In this document: piece after piece, positions 4,590 through 26,336 of the stretch
How positions within the stretch are numbered: position 1 is the stretch's first letter
How the letters are laid out: each line of letters begins with the position of its first letter
NCBI RefSeq assembly: GCF_020520425.1
Contig: NC_079491.1
Span: 5,133,143 to 5,197,142, forward strand
Length of the DNA: 64,000 nt
Source of the DNA: Spinacia oleracea
Lineage: Eukaryota > Streptophyta > Magnoliopsida > Caryophyllales > Amaranthaceae
Direction: 5' to 3'
Made by a program: the position numbers and the translations under genes
The notes under the pieces: generated by a model
Database searches by the model: none
What the model saw: the letters and a program-made list of their open reading frames with translations, nothing else
Told to the model about the DNA's origin: nothing

Positions 4590-4945
4590 CTCCCTCCGTT
4601 CCTAAATAAGTGTCACATTTGGGCTCGGGCACGGTAATTAATAAAATTGTAAAGTGTGTAAGAGTTAATGATTGGGAATGTTTTTTTTTTGGGAAAAGGA
4701 TAAATTAGATAATTGTTTAATTGAATAATGTACAAATAAAAGTGTATGTGGGGATTGAAAAGTGGAAAAGTGTAGAATGCGTAAGTAAAAGTAATTATGA
4801 TTTATAGGAAAGTGGGAAAAGTGTATGAAAAAGTGTGAAAAGTGTATGGAAAAGTGAGAAAAGTACATGTTCAAAAATAGAAATGTGACACTTATAAGGG
4901 AACGCAAAAAATGGAAATGTGACACTTATTTAGGAACGGAGGGAG
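4590..4945. mobile_element. Stowaway MITE (356 bp)
   Basis: The terminal inverted repeats start CTCCCTCCGTTCCTAAATAA and extend into GTGTCACATTT. A TA duplication lies at 4588-4589 and 4946-4947. Stowaway elements are short non-autonomous relatives of Tc1/Mariner. This one is nested in motif-cluster element B, so it is the younger of the two. No coding capacity. Confidence 0.9.
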
Positions 4946-11069: not shown

Positions 11070-11322
11070 CTACCTCCGTTTCAAAAAGATTTTTACGCTT
11101 TGAAAAATATGTCCAAAATTCAAAACTTTGACCATAAATTCTCACTATTATATCTATCAAAAATTATCTGAAATGTCTTGTTAGATTCATCTCGAAATGT
11201 ATTTTATAAATATCAATTTTTTATAATTTTTTGTCATACGAAATTGGATATATTAACGGTCAAACATTGCATTGAAGTCCGTGCAAATAGTAACTGTAAA
11301 GATGTTTTTGAAACGGAGGTAG
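11070..11322. mobile_element. Stowaway MITE (253 bp) in F-box intron
   Basis: The inverted ends are CTACCTCCGTTTCAAAAAGA and its near complement TTTTTGAAACGGAGGTAG. A TA duplication lies at 11068-11069 and 11323-11324. It sits in the last intron of the F-box/LRR gene, so it need not have harmed splicing. No coding capacity. Confidence 0.85.
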
Positions 11323-20280: not shown

Positions 20281-21093
20281 TAGGGTCACATTTTTCATTG
20301 GTTGGATCACATTTATCCTTGAATAAGGTAACTTATACTCCATATAGTTTAATCCTCGAATAAGGCCGATCACTTATAAGAGTTATATTTTTCACATTTT
20401 ACACACTAGGTTAGATATACAGCAAAATACCGTAGATTTGGCACACAAAAGTAACTTCTGCCCTTTCTTTGATCATAGGATTCATGCTGGTACGAAAAGA
20501 TTAATTAACTTCCGTATGCATGCATGTGAGGGAACCGGATAGTGCTAGAATCCTACTACGTAGTACTCCCTCCATTCCTTTTTGTTGTTCCCATTTCCTT
20601 TTTTGGCGTTTCTTTTTGTTGTTCCCCTACTGAATCTTTACTATTTTTGGCCATAGTTTTTTTACCAATTTACCCTAAGATTCCCCACTATTTACCAAAA
20701 ATACCCTAAGATTCTACCCTTTCCCACCCACTTTTACCCCACCCACCTTATTTAATTATTTAACCTAACCCCACCCCCCCTCCCTTTATAACCCGTTGCT
20801 ATCTCTTCTCACTCTCTCACCTCTTATTCTGATTTCTCTCTCACCCTTTCGGATCTCTCTCTCTCTCTTATTTTACTCTCTCTCTCTCTTAAAATCCCTC
20901 CCATGTTCTTGAGAAAACCCTAGGTTTTCCGCCTCTGTTCTGGGTTTTCCTCTCCAAATCTCACAAATCTGAAACGTTTTCGCCGAAAAACTTTCATAAA
21001 AATTACTCGGATTCATTTTCCGATCAGATCCCCTCTATTTTTGTCCCCTTTTTGATCCCTAATCGTCGCTGATCTTTGTTTTTCTGGTACGTA

Positions 21094-22279
21094 ATGGGTT
21101 CTTCTTTGTCTAGAACTCGAGGTGATTCTGGGGTGGGAACTTCTGGTCAAAGAATCCCCGATTCCAACTGTGATTGGGGATCCAAGTGCAACTGTCCCAA
21201 TAACGAGCATTCCTACTCCGCCGAATATAAAAACAATCTGTATTTGGCCCAAAAAGAAAATACGAGTACTCGAAACTATTTGGAAGAATGGTTTCGGAAG
21301 AGGGAAGTGGAGCCAGGAGAGGAGGTTGAGTCAAAATATGACGATCGGAAACCCACTCCCTCAGATCTGCGTTTTTTCGGTGAAGGAGATTCCGATGAGG
21401 TATTACTTTTGATTTTTTGCGATTTATTTAGGGTTATTGATGTCGGTTTTATTAAAATGGTTTGATGATTGTTTGCATGTCTAAAAAAGTGAGATTTGAT
21501 AAATGTTGGATTTATTTGGAGTATTGTTCATTAAACTCGGATTATTTATTGGATAAGTTGCTCTGATTTCCCATTGCATGTGTTAAAAATGCAGATCTGA
21601 TATTATTTCGAATTTGTTGGGAATTTTTTGGAGATTTGTTGGATTCAATCGGGCTTTTTATGTTATTTTTTGCTCTGTTTTCTCATTGCATGTTGTTAAA
21701 ATTGAGTTCTGATTTTATTTTGTGTTCTGCTTTTTCATTGCATGTTGTTAAAATTGAGTTCTGATTTTATTTGGAGATATTTGGAAATTATTTGAAGAAA
21801 ATCGGAATATTCATGTGTTTTGTTGATCTGTTTTCCCATTGCATGTGGTTAAAAATGGGATCTGGATGTATTTGGGATATTATTTGACATTTTTTGGGTA
21901 AAAATGGGATCTGGATGTATTCGGAAAATTAGTTGGATTTTAATGGAATTATTGTGTGGTTTGCTCTCATTTATCTCATTGCATGTGGTAACCATGGTGA
22001 TATGAAATTATTTGGAACTTTATTTTGAGTTGTTTGATTAAATCTGATTTTAATTCATGGTCCCCTGTTATTTTATGATGGCACTAATCATGTTGTTTGT
22101 CCCCTATTGATTGCAAGGAACCAAGTGGGTCTGATTCATTTGATCTGGTGTATGTTGGAGAGTGTGAAAATGAGAATGGTGATGCTGTTGGGTCTCCAGG
22201 GCAACTTTCATCTGGTTATCCCTCCTCAAAGAAAGTTGAAAAGGGAAAAAAATCGGCTTCAGCATCTGATGATGCTTAG
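21094..22279 (+). CDS. Second gene of the Mariner element, two exons
   Basis: Exon 1 (21094-21399) opens MGSSLSRTRGDSGVG and ends in GEGDSDE at a GT donor. Exon 2 (22118-22279) follows a TTGCAAG acceptor and reads EPSGSDSFDLVYVGE through to KKSASASDDA and a stop. Both join in phase 0, giving about 155 residues. The product is charged, acidic in the middle and lysine/serine-rich at the end, with three cysteines near residues 27-36. Upstream lies a CT-rich, 5'UTR-like stretch (20800-20990) containing AAAACCCTAGGTTTT. I do not recognise the protein. It is transcribed toward the transposase gene and may be a captured host fragment or an accessory factor. The 719-bp intron carries repeats of CATTGCATGTTGTTAAAA. 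Confidence 0.5.
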
Positions 22280-24132
22280 ATAAGTTTGTCTCCTTTCTCC
22301 CTTTTTTAATTTTATTGAATGCTGGCTAGCTGTGGAGTCATAAGGTGGATGCCAACAACTGTGATCTGTTGTTGGCCAGGGGTGTTGTTATTTGGATGAT
22401 GATGTTGTGATTAGTTGTATGGATGTTGATGTTAGATAATGATGTTATGATATTGATATTGATAATGATGATTGGATGATGGTGTTTCCATATGGTTATG
22501 AAATTTTGTGGAATGTTGTCTGTGTGATGAACATAATTTGATGGCTTAATGTCCCCTGTTTTATGGTATGTTTTGTGTATGATAAATATGATGCTTTGGT
22601 GAGTATGAGATTTGATCAGTATAACTATGTTTTGGATTAGTAAAGGCATGAAATGAATATAATTTGGGGATAGGGTTTGAGTTATTTCAGTCCTCTCAGT
22701 GTGGCCTTGTGTTGAATGCTTAATGTCCAAGCATGTCCCTTTAGGATACAGTAATGTCCCTTTATTTATTGTGATCGATGATGAGTCTTTTTAATGCTGA
22801 GGAACAAGTCTTACTAACCACAAATGCTCGTGCTGCCATTAGTATCAGTAATGATATTTCTCGGGCACTAAGTGTTTGTGGTTTGGAGTTGTTTTAATGA
22901 TGCTTGGGGACATTCTAAGATCAATATTAGGAGGTTTGTGATCTTCAATGATGTGATTGTTGATATTCTGAGATCTTTGTTTTGATAATTATCCTTTAAC
23001 TTCTTTTGTCCAACGGAGTGAATGTCATTTCACACAATGAAATGTGAATATCAATCATTCAATTGGGCAGAAGAACGTTAAAGATATGATAGTATTGAAA
23101 CTACTTGATCAATGATGTGTGTCAATATGTCTGAGAAATGAAACCCTGCATGTTAATGATCTGTTTAATGCTTCATGTCCCATGAATCAGTGGAGGTCTG
23201 TGATGAGTCTTTCATTTGATGAGGTTCAAACCCTATGTTTTGATCAGTTCATGGTGATCTGATGCATTGTTGATTGTTATGCTTGATCTGTGATGAGTCT
23301 TTCATTTGCTGAGACTCAAACCCAATGTTCCAATAACACTTGTGCACCATTAGCATCATTGATGCTCTTCCGGAGCTAAGTGTTAGGGGATAGGGTTTGT
23401 GTCAATGATGCTTGGGGACATTCTGAGATCTTATGTCATGTTAGACAGGAGAGGCAATTCATGTCTTGCAAAACATGTATAATGTGTTTCTGATATTCAA
23501 TGATGTTATTGTTGATATTCTGTGATGTATGTGTTGATAACCTAAGATATTTGATTCTAAACATGTCCTTCATCACCAATTACCAAAGGGAATACAGATC
23601 ATGTCACATCATTGATTGATCATGTATCCCCTTGTTTATAGTGTTGCCAATGCTGCCTTACCTCTTGTGCCTTGTTCTTTTTCTGCCAATGCTGCCTTGT
23701 TCTTGTTATGTACTTCTTCCTTGTTTATTGCCTTGCCTTGATTACTCTATATTGATGTGAATAAGAATGATGAAAAAAAACTTTACTAAACTTAAACATG
23801 AGATTCATTCATTGATGCTTCCAAAAGATATGCTTACAAAATGTTTTGCCTACATGTTATGCTTGCATTTAAGCTTACAAAAGTGACACATTGGTTTTAC
23901 TTGTCAATTTAAAAACATGTCCCCAAAACACAAAAAGTTATCTAATTGTTTTCACTTTGCTTCACTGGTTTGCTTTCCATTCATCATAGAGTTGCATGCA
24001 TTCATTAACTGCCCATATAGGTGCCTTGACTTGCTCTGGCAGTCTGCCTTCATCTTCTAAAATCTTCTTCTTGTTGTGTGGAAGTTGGTAATCATTGTTG
24101 CCTTTGTGTTTTAGAATCTCATTAGAAACAAA

Positions 24133-25608
24133 CTATAATGTCATCCACACATTAGACAATGTCTTAGGATGCAACTCATTAAAAGAATCATACACTGCTC
24201 CACTTAAGTCCTCCACAGTTTTAGGCATTTTCTTGTACATAAGTGATTGTATTGACCTGAAAAATCCCAAGTCCAAGATGTTGCAATCTGGACTGTTTGC
24301 TGGCTGTTGAGTCAACACAAAAGTGAACCCATCTTGTTTGTAGTGTAGTTGCCATTCAGGATCATTTTGCAATATATGTGCCTTTGCATTATCTTGAATG
24401 ATATAGATGACCTTTTCCCCTTCATGTGGTGGCCACTTAGCCTTGATTGCTGGAAGTAGCTTGTTGATCATCATTGCCCTTGTCTCTATTTGATTTACAG
24501 ACTTCACTGGCTTTGTTTCAATGGTCCCCTTGAGTCTGTTTTTTGATGTCCTCTTGGCTGCAATTGCATTTGTGAATGGAAATATGCCTATTTTACCATC
24601 AAATTCACATTCCCCATTTTCACCCCACCTTGGTCTGGCTACTGCTGCCATGAACATGAATTTTGGTATCTTGGTTCTTGAACTTGCACTTCTGTGTGGA
24701 TAGGGTTCATTGTTTGCAAGATAAACTCTCTGGTTTTTTTGAGTCAAATAAAACCACTTCTCATCAATATGAATGAAGTCATACATGCTGTAATATGTTG
24801 GTTCTTGTGGTATAGTGTAGTCCATTATCAGTCTGATTGCCCACCTTATCCTTGCCATTTTGCATGCTTCTGAAATGCCTGGATGTAAGGGACTTGAGTG
24901 TGGCTTTATAATTTTCCTCTTGATGAGCCTCCATACTGTTGTTGGTCCCAAATTCAGCATTCTTGCAAGATCTACGATGCATGTTCTGTCCCCCATGCCT
25001 ATTTGTGCAATTGAGTCATAGGAGACTTGAACCTTTTTCCTTCCACATCTGTGATATTGGCTTTGCACAATATATGAATTCATTGCTGCCTTATGTTTCT
25101 TTGCTTTGTCCCATATTTTGCCTATGGTTTTTCTGGTGTAATCATATTCTATGACTGCATCCCTTATTGCCCCATACAACAGAGTTTCTGAATCTGGAAT
25201 CTTTCTATTGAGCAGGAACACCAATATTTCTAGCCTCAATTCATTATTTATTCTTGGAGTCCTTGGCTTGTGATGATCTGTTGTGTGTGTTGCTGTTTGA
25301 TGATGATGAGGTGATGCATTTTCTAATGGTGGTGGAAAGTTCAAATCAAAAAGAAATGGTACCTCTTGAAAGTTGGTAGTTTGCTGCTGCCCTTCCCCTT
25401 CTACTTCTGGTACTTGCTGTACATATTCAGTGCTGTTTGGTACATCTTCATTAAACCCAATGTCCCCAAAATCAGCAGCAGTACTTTCAGAAGCTTGTAC
25501 CAAGTCAGCAGCATCATCACCTTTCTCCGAGTCAGAATCGGAGTTAATGCCGTCGCCTTCATCATCAGAAAAACCGAGGAAATCGTCTTCCTCTTGATCT
25601 GAAGCCAT
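24133..25608 (-). CDS. Mariner-like transposase (D,D39D)
   Basis: The 491-residue frame has an acidic N-terminus (residues 1-60) and a helix-turn-helix DNA-binding region (about 140-260, with LARMLNLGPTTVWRLIKRK). The catalytic triad comes next: HIDEKWF, then QDNAKAH, and then a third D 40 residues after the second, in QPANSPDCNILDLGFF. This is the plant D,D39D Mariner signature; the enzyme excises the element and inserts it at TA. The frame stops at TAG (24133-24135) just after NVWMTL. The same frame continues for 56 more codons to TGA at 23962, with family-like sequence (LPHNKKKILEDEGRLPEQV), and relatives usually have Q at that stop. So one C-to-T change has probably trimmed the C-terminus. 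It is read toward the plus-strand gene and has its own TATA box upstream. Confidence 0.85.
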   Translation of the reverse strand: MASDQEEDDFLGFSDDEGDGINSDSDSEKGDDAADLVQASESTAADFGDIGFNEDVPNSTEYVQQVPEVEGEGQQQTTNFQEVPFLFDLNFPPPLENASPHHHQTATHTTDHHKPRTPRINNELRLEILVFLLNRKIPDSETLLYGAIRDAVIEYDYTRKTIGKIWDKAKKHKAAMNSYIVQSQYHRCGRKKVQVSYDSIAQIGMGDRTCIVDLARMLNLGPTTVWRLIKRKIIKPHSSPLHPGISEACKMARIRWAIRLIMDYTIPQEPTYYSMYDFIHIDEKWFYLTQKNQRVYLANNEPYPHRSASSRTKIPKFMFMAAVARPRWGENGECEFDGKIGIFPFTNAIAAKRTSKNRLKGTIETKPVKSVNQIETRAMMINKLLPAIKAKWPPHEGEKVIYIIQDNAKAHILQNDPEWQLHYKQDGFTFVLTQQPANSPDCNILDLGFFRSIQSLMYKKMPKTVEDLSGAVYDSFNELHPKTLSNVWMTL

Positions 25609-25726
25609 TAAGTCCCCTGTTTTTTAGCTATTTAATGCTGAGTTGAGGAATAAATTTTGGTGTGTGTTTGTATTTATTGAACATGAGTTGGATCAGAATT
25701 TTGGGGTTTTGTGGGGAAAGTCACCC

Positions 25727-25734
25727 TATTTATA
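25727..25734 (-). promoter_or_regulatory. Probable TATA box of transposase gene
   Basis: TATAAATA on the minus strand lies about 120 bp upstream of the transposase start codon at 25608. The intervening sequence is a plausible 5'UTR without an earlier ATG in a strong context. Position and sequence fit a plant core promoter. Confidence 0.5.
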
Positions 25735-26336
25735 AAGGCATAACACTTTTTCAACCCCTCAAAATTTTGGAGGGAAAAACAAAGTCAATTTGTAATTGTT
25801 AGGGAAAATTTCGTGGAATTTTTGGAGGGAAAAGTGGGAGTCAGAATTTTGGGCAAAATTTCCACCCAAAAATACGTGACTCATTATACTGTGATTGGTC
25901 CATATTTTTTCAGTTGGGTCCCCCAGCCTATGTGACAGAAATTGTAACTCAATTTATTCAATACTTTAATAAATATCTACTTTTTCCCCAATTAATTTAA
26001 TACTTTCTCTCTCTTTACTTTATTCTTTTTCTTACACACAATCATTATTCTTACACCCAATCATTACCCATATCCCAATACAACCCAAGATTCAGTTTTC
26101 TTAAAATACCCCCAACATTCCTTATGGGTACAACAAAAAGGAATGGAGGGAGTATATGTCGAATTATCTACAGATAATTAAACAAAAGCTATATCCGAAA
26201 TATAAAACTACTTTTTTTAAGGTAAATATAAAAACTATCTTTTGTCAATCTTTATTTATTTATTTTTTTAAAAAAGTTCGAAATAATAAGACAATTAACC
26301 AAATACTAGTAGAATTAGATACATAATTTTGACAGC

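Follow-up and report, generated by a model that had tools for sequence, protein, structure and literature searches.

A mariner-like element of spinach carries a second, split gene under purifying selection and may represent a two-gene lineage

Why would a transposon that can move with one gene keep a second one? Mariner elements are textbook one-gene transposons in which the transposase suffices for movement, and Vulmar1 and Soymar1 are single-gene elements. A 64,000-nucleotide stretch of Spinacia oleracea DNA (contig NC_079491.1, positions 5,133,143 to 5,197,142; hereafter the window) contains a mariner-like element in which a transposase gene faces a convergent two-exon gene on the plus strand, here called gene 2 (Table 1). 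The initial annotation of this stretch proposed either the capture of a host gene or an accessory factor of a little-described subfamily. After comparing copies across one genome (894 Mb, 242 contigs), we consider it fairly probable that the element belongs to a plant DD39D mariner lineage with two genes, gene 2 serving as an accessory factor.

The first question is whether gene 2 recurs with the transposase. Of 658 candidates retrieved with the window transposase, 87 were scored (77 without an internal stop, judged by eye), and 85 of these S1-subfamily transposases have gene 2 exon 1 in convergent orientation no more than 25 kb away; for 80 of the 85 the distance is at most 5.6 kb. The two unpaired transposases lie at C2:88192540, with a DWGSKC word about 18 kb and a KENTSTRNY word about 7 kb off, and at C2:1525835, with neither word nearby in the pattern-match lists. 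These two words come from degenerate gene 2 patterns that matched 204 and 208 places in the genome, respectively; the reversed controls matched 1 and 0. A search with the gene 2 protein gave 498 candidates, of which 150 were scored and 144 lacked an internal stop by eye. A second subfamily, S2, was defined by 36 transposase rows at least 88% identical to the L077 query and is 71% identical to the window transposase. Gene 2 lies within 25 kb of all 36 and within 7 kb of 33; one partner was taken from the DWGSKC pattern rather than from an exon 1 match. Whether other copies carry the plus-strand gene, a point raised by the initial annotation, is thus answered positively for both subfamilies among the transposases scored.

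The pairing extends to whole elements. In the window and in the S2 element at L074 and L077, the transposase and the split gene 2 lie inside the same TA-flanked ends. The S2 element is nearly whole, measures 6.6 kb and has TA, CTCCCTCC ends and the same convergent gene order. In the window, the arms (20564-20594 and 26124-26154) each comprise TA plus 29 nt and are 97% complementary, with one mismatch in 31 nt including the TA. The matching inverted ends annotated initially therefore stand, at 29 nt instead of 28 bp, as does the TA on each side, which was read from the flanks alone. Among 30 gene 2 loci (L009-L038, L034 being the window copy), 28 have CTCCCTCC within 700 nt 5' of exon 1, preceded by TA in all 28. 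Likewise, CTCCCTCC[AG]TT follows TA in 29 of 30 transposase loci (L039-L068, L039 being the window copy). CTCCCTCC is a Stowaway-type start of a terminal inverted repeat. Outward of each gene lies a TATA-like box; the diverged L074 element has both, and there TTTATAAATAGGG lies 122 nt 5' of the transposase ATG.

Strong purifying selection has acted on gene 2 ever since the subfamilies diverged. Between the window and L074, exon 1 differs at 49.8 of 66.2 synonymous sites (proportion of synonymous differences, pS, 0.75) and at 34.2 of 239.8 nonsynonymous sites (pN 0.14; P = 3e-21). Between the window and L085, the corresponding values are 51.4 of 63.7 (pS 0.81) and 44.6 of 242.3 (pN 0.18; P = 3e-20). 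A synonymous excess was present in all ten exon 1 pairs of five sequences and reached P < 1e-10 in nine; the remaining pair, the window and L069, gave P = 0.06. Over both exons, the ratio of nonsynonymous to synonymous divergence (dN/dS) between S1-type copies and S2 is 0.10-0.13, and that of the transposase is 0.16; these ratios are rough, synonymous sites being close to saturated. Exon 1 sequences came from S1 (the window), S2 (L070-L074 and L082), L084, L085 and the decayed S1-like copy L069, with identities to the window of 70-95% across the other nine sequences of the ten-sequence alignment. About ten L085-like copies occur among the matches listed, and broken gene 2 copies were found at L081, L083 and L086. 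Gene 2 thus appears, from these comparisons, to be held by selection in at least four diverged versions within one genome.

The signal is specific to the annotated frame. Frame controls on two pairs left the coding frame as the single frame, out of six, with no stop in either sequence. Minus frame 1, which mirrors the coding frame in its codon positions, showed a weaker excess (0.56/0.18 and 0.65/0.21) and contained stops, and the remaining four frames showed no synonymous excess. An accidental open frame in a repeated element was accordingly rejected on the frame-specific divergence in exon 1, and the conserved splice sites and promoter-like boxes make this explanation vanishingly improbable. 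The conserved reading frame under purifying selection that the initial annotation asked about is therefore present.

The predicted gene structure is also conserved. The convergent two-exon gene annotated on the plus strand is a phase-0 gene with its ATG at 21094, encoding a product of 155 amino acids. Its splice sites are a GTATTA donor after 21399 and a TTGCAAG acceptor before 22118. Among 38 copies read over both exons (including the window copy itself, L034, and 29 S1 copies picked for high score), the donor GTAT is present in 38, the acceptor AG in 37 and a full-length exon 2, judged by eye, in 32. Two gene 2 copies, L009 and L010 (C5:19465316, plus strand, and 19467943, minus strand), lie face to face 2.6 kb apart; the acceptor of L010 ends in AA.

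Could gene 2 be a captured host-gene fragment, carried as a passenger? Host-gene capture by plant transposons is well known, and the ordinary GT-AG intron of gene 2 would suit such an origin. However, a passenger would neither stay selected nor lie beside nearly every scored transposase, and gene 2 shows purifying selection across subfamilies despite saturated synonymous sites. Among the best-scoring matches in this genome, no relative outside these elements was found; seven loci drawn from unusual DWGSKC matches comprised four gene 2 copies (two broken) and three chance matches. We therefore regard a passenger as improbable, and the data speak more for a gene long resident in the element than for recent capture. 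Of the two origins first proposed, the accessory factor of a little-described subfamily is the better supported and recent capture is disfavoured.

How far does such an element depart from known ones? The annotated D,D39D transposase was confirmed on the translation: the second and third D are 39 residues apart (QDNAKAH...NILDLGFF; counted by eye), and the motif is retained in the L074 element. Against NCBIfam NF033545 (IS630), the window transposase gave E = 3.9e-7 and 29.8 bits, under the model cutoff of 100; Pfam DDE_3 gave a sub-cutoff E of 0.028; and no solved structure matched at E up to 1. The TA target, the CTCCCTCC ends, the D39D transposase and the DLGFF at the third D are shared with the plant mariners Vulmar1, Soymar1, Osmar and Ppmar (PlantMar). 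The short terminal inverted repeat of the PlantMar type, starting with CTCCCTCC, is found in the window element, and the end of the L074 element reads CTCCCTCCGTTTC. Excerpts from the literature describe PlantMar elements as 2-6 kb long and built in the usual Tc1/mariner way, with only one open reading frame (ORF) in most mariner elements (PMC7325037); the window element measures 5.6 kb and the L074 element 6.6 kb. The window lineage differs in its second, selected, split gene; this departure from the usual transposase-only state concerns the genes carried and leaves the catalytic definition untouched. Titles and abstract openings in the open-licence literature on plant mariners, on their hosts and on acylated proteins encoded by transposons mention no plant mariner with a second gene, which is weak evidence of absence. 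Elements of about 6 kb may have been overlooked in a spinach repeat survey, because the 693 Tc1-Mariner pieces given in excerpts of it sum to only 176 kb (PMC6337768).

Within the wider superfamily, extra genes have a precedent in the Tec elements of ciliates, Tc1/mariner elements that, according to the same excerpts, carry additional ORFs, one of which encodes a second functional protein (PMC7325037). There, however, the second protein is a site-specific recombinase, the catalytic motif is DD34E and the hosts are ciliates. For 20 other IS630/mariner-type matches in the spinach genome (contigs C1-C6, hand-picked among the best-scoring, with small contigs and some rows omitted), the closest of 209 known gene 2 exon 1 places lies 77 kb to 6.3 Mb away. 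This suggests that other mariner families lack gene 2, though strongly diverged or lower-scoring relatives would escape the search. The only one of these matches that was partly read, L087 (C4:27712420-27712790), is a different D39D mariner transposase that shares LDLGFFRSIQSLM; the closest of the 209 gene 2 places is 293 kb from it.

As a model, we propose that both genes would be transcribed from TATA promoters near the two element ends, that gene 2 would be spliced from exon 1 to exon 2 as drawn and that its product would act as an accessory factor raising the success of the element. Transposase-bearing copies would therefore keep gene 2, and short derivatives without it could use its product in trans.

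What, then, might the product do? The gene 2 protein is predicted to have a mass of 17 kDa, an isoelectric point (pI) of 4.6 and a net charge of about -11. It starts with MGSS[LSFT]S[KR] in nine of ten aligned sequences, with S6 and K/R at position 7 in all ten. The codons of G2, S3, S4 and S6 vary synonymously between subfamilies while the residues are fixed, and residues 8-13 drift. C32, C34 and H39 are invariant, and C26 is present in nine of the ten. The N-myristoylation consensus is an MGxxxS[K/R] start, which the gene 2 N-terminus fits as a candidate only. This conserved N-terminus, and the fact that no DNA-binding domain was recognised, lead us to prefer a role at the membrane or in the cytoplasm, above all in counter-silencing. 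Our tentative proposal is that the protein would be N-myristoylated through its MGSSxS[K/R] start, would fold partly around the C/C/C/H set and would work in the cytoplasm or on membranes, either countering host silencing or controlling the supply of transposase, rather than as a DNA-binding cofactor.

The main rival is a nuclear transposition cofactor that, like ORF1 of PIF/Harbinger elements, would bind element DNA or the transposase and bring the transposase to the ends. Ping and Pong, as described in excerpts of the literature, combine a DDE transposase with a separate accessory ORF (PMC4482050), and the layout here is alike in placing a transposase and an accessory gene inside one element. 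The tight pairing with the transposase fits such a cofactor, internal repeat arrays with conserved cores could serve as binding sites, the C/C/C/H set could bind zinc and exon 2 has a lysine patch. However, PIF/Harbinger belongs to another superfamily, with a 3-bp target duplication instead of TA flanks, and its accessory ORF has a Myb/SANT domain. In 11 gene 2 members searched at E up to 1, no Pfam family scored above its cutoff and neither Myb/SANT nor any other DNA-binding family appeared at all, and an NCBIfam match to the regulator PtrR (E = 0.036) was far under cutoff. The protein is also acidic, and its MGSSxS[K/R] start speaks against a role confined to the nucleus. We judge a nuclear cofactor somewhat unlikely. 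The best Pfam match, of exon 1 to Caulimovir_coat_dom (PF22909; E = 0.011, 16.5 bits against a cutoff of 27), is a weak lead; this family appeared in 7 of the 11 members and DUF7112 in 6 (E up to 1), along with others, all sub-cutoff. No solved structure matched exon 1 at E up to 5, and 17 pattern matches in viral contigs included no relative.

The intron of gene 2 is itself unusual. It aligns poorly between S1 and S2, with 71% identity over aligned positions where shuffled sequence reaches 67%, and consists of diverging repeats spaced about 50-52 bp apart or at multiples of that distance (window, L074, L072, L084). The core TTGCATGT is retained across subfamilies while the sequence between repeats changes: there are 6 copies of it in the window, 5 in L074, 8 in L072, 4 in L070, 6 in L084 and 9 in L069, against an expectation of 0.04-0.10 in those six introns. 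All 38 introns counted contain four to nine copies, on the coding strand only; in 99,600 strand-bases upstream of the genes, the word occurs once. S1 introns are about 718, 770 or 822 nt long, in steps of one 52-bp unit, with 6, 7 or 8 copies, respectively, and a single exception (6 copies in 770 nt). The single orientation is no evidence for a role in RNA, because tandem growth alone could maintain it. TGCATG is the RY core on the opposite strand, which is bound by plant embryo B3 factors. An RY-type enhancer or a protein target array is possible; most likely, the array would bind either a host factor that times expression or the product of gene 2 itself. Arrays centred on TTGCATGT were seen in the window intron and in the introns of L069-L076 and L084. 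In the spacer between the genes, TGATGAGTC occurs 3 times in the window and 4 times in the L074 element, and TCAATGATG 4 and 6 times, against an expectation below 0.1, both words having been chosen by inspecting the same two spacers (window and L074/L077) in which they were counted.

These repeats invite a comparison with VANDAL Mutator-like elements (MULEs) of Arabidopsis, in which VANC is a sequence-specific anti-silencing factor; gene 2 might act likewise, with the TTGCATGT intron array or the spacer repeats as its target. VANC target regions are described in excerpts as rapidly diverging tandem repeats (PMC10398659), and the intron and spacer of the spinach elements are diverging repeats around short cores. 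Both are plant elements that encode an additional protein and contain diverging internal repeats, a likeness drawn from description and not from protein comparison, and VANDAL elements belong to another superfamily. Against such a role, gene 2 is related to no Pfam family above cutoff, and the identical core in S1, S2 and L084 introns suits a constant host factor equally well; we consider it unlikely. Combining the membrane or cytoplasmic role favoured above with the intron array gives a bolder picture, which we put forward as a long shot: a mariner lineage with its own myristoylated counter-defence protein, switched on in the embryo by an intronic RY-type TGCATG enhancer, so that new copies would be inherited. 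We know of no plant Tc1/mariner element with such a two-component selfish strategy of counter-defence protein and embryo enhancer.

Several observations weigh against a selected accessory gene or against the role proposed for it. Close pairs have dN/dS values of 0.14-0.42, as expected of decaying copies. Exon 2 alone gives weaker support than exon 1 (window against L074, P = 0.003; against L072, P = 0.001), and its comparisons with L084 give P = 0.09-0.11; it is short in 6 of the 38 two-exon copies. Intact copies are over-represented because only the best-scoring copies of longer lists were taken, and L085 was read only across exon 1 and into the beginning of the intron. As to the protein, the decayed copy L069 lacks G2, the favoured mode of action rests on an N-myristoylation consensus, and the AlphaFold model of exon 1 from 11 sequences (mean predicted local distance difference test score 51; helices at 43-54 and 59-69) is unusable. 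If a second gene has indeed been kept through saturated synonymous divergence, the transposase alone would be insufficient for long-term success in spinach, and the lineage would offer a specific protein and a specific cis array with which to study the regulation of plant mariners or their evasion of silencing.

Table 1. Features of the mariner-like element in the window (positions within the 64,000-nt stretch)
Feature	Positions	Strand	Details
Complete mariner-like element	20566-26152		5,587 bp, TA-flanked; inverted-repeat and sibling comparison
Left terminal inverted repeat	20566-20594	+	Begins CTCCCTCCATTCC; preceded by TA at 20564-20565
TATA-like box of gene 2	20787-20791	+	Ahead of CT-rich leader; same TTATAACCCGT in L074 element
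Gene 2 exon 1	21094-21399	+	102 codons, from MGSSLSR... to ...GDSDE; C26, C32, C34 and H39 in the conserved core
Gene 2 intron	21400-22117	+	718 nt, GTAT...GCAAG, phase 0; diverging-repeat array
Gene 2 exon 2	22118-22279	+	53 codons plus stop (22277-22279); ends SDDA, acidic
Noncoding spacer between convergent genes	22280-24132		About 636 bp shorter than in siblings
D39D transposase	24133-25608	-	491 amino acids in window copy; ORF translation
TATA-like box of transposase gene	25730-25734	-	TTTATAAATAGGG; 126 nt 5' of ATG
Right terminal inverted repeat	26124-26152	-	Followed by TA at 26153-26154

The window copy itself is partly decayed, with its own gene 2 intact. An in-frame premature TAG shortens its transposase, which has 548 amino acids in the sibling L040, and the spacer sequence missing near 23630 is present in six of six siblings compared (for example, L041). 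Because the transposase stops at codon 491 of 548 and the spacer carries this deletion, the copy is probably non-autonomous. About 4 bp are common to both sides of the spacer break.

Shorter repeats with similar ends were also seen. Two short stretches of the window (4590-4945 and 11070-11322) have inverted CTCCCTCCGTTCC and CTACCTCCGTTTC ends and the look of Stowaway-type miniature inverted-repeat transposable elements (MITEs). A 344-bp MITE-like copy lies at 1501-1844 of L007, with ends 72-79% similar to those of the window element, and contig C1 contains repeated pairs of ends at an identical spacing of 344 bp.

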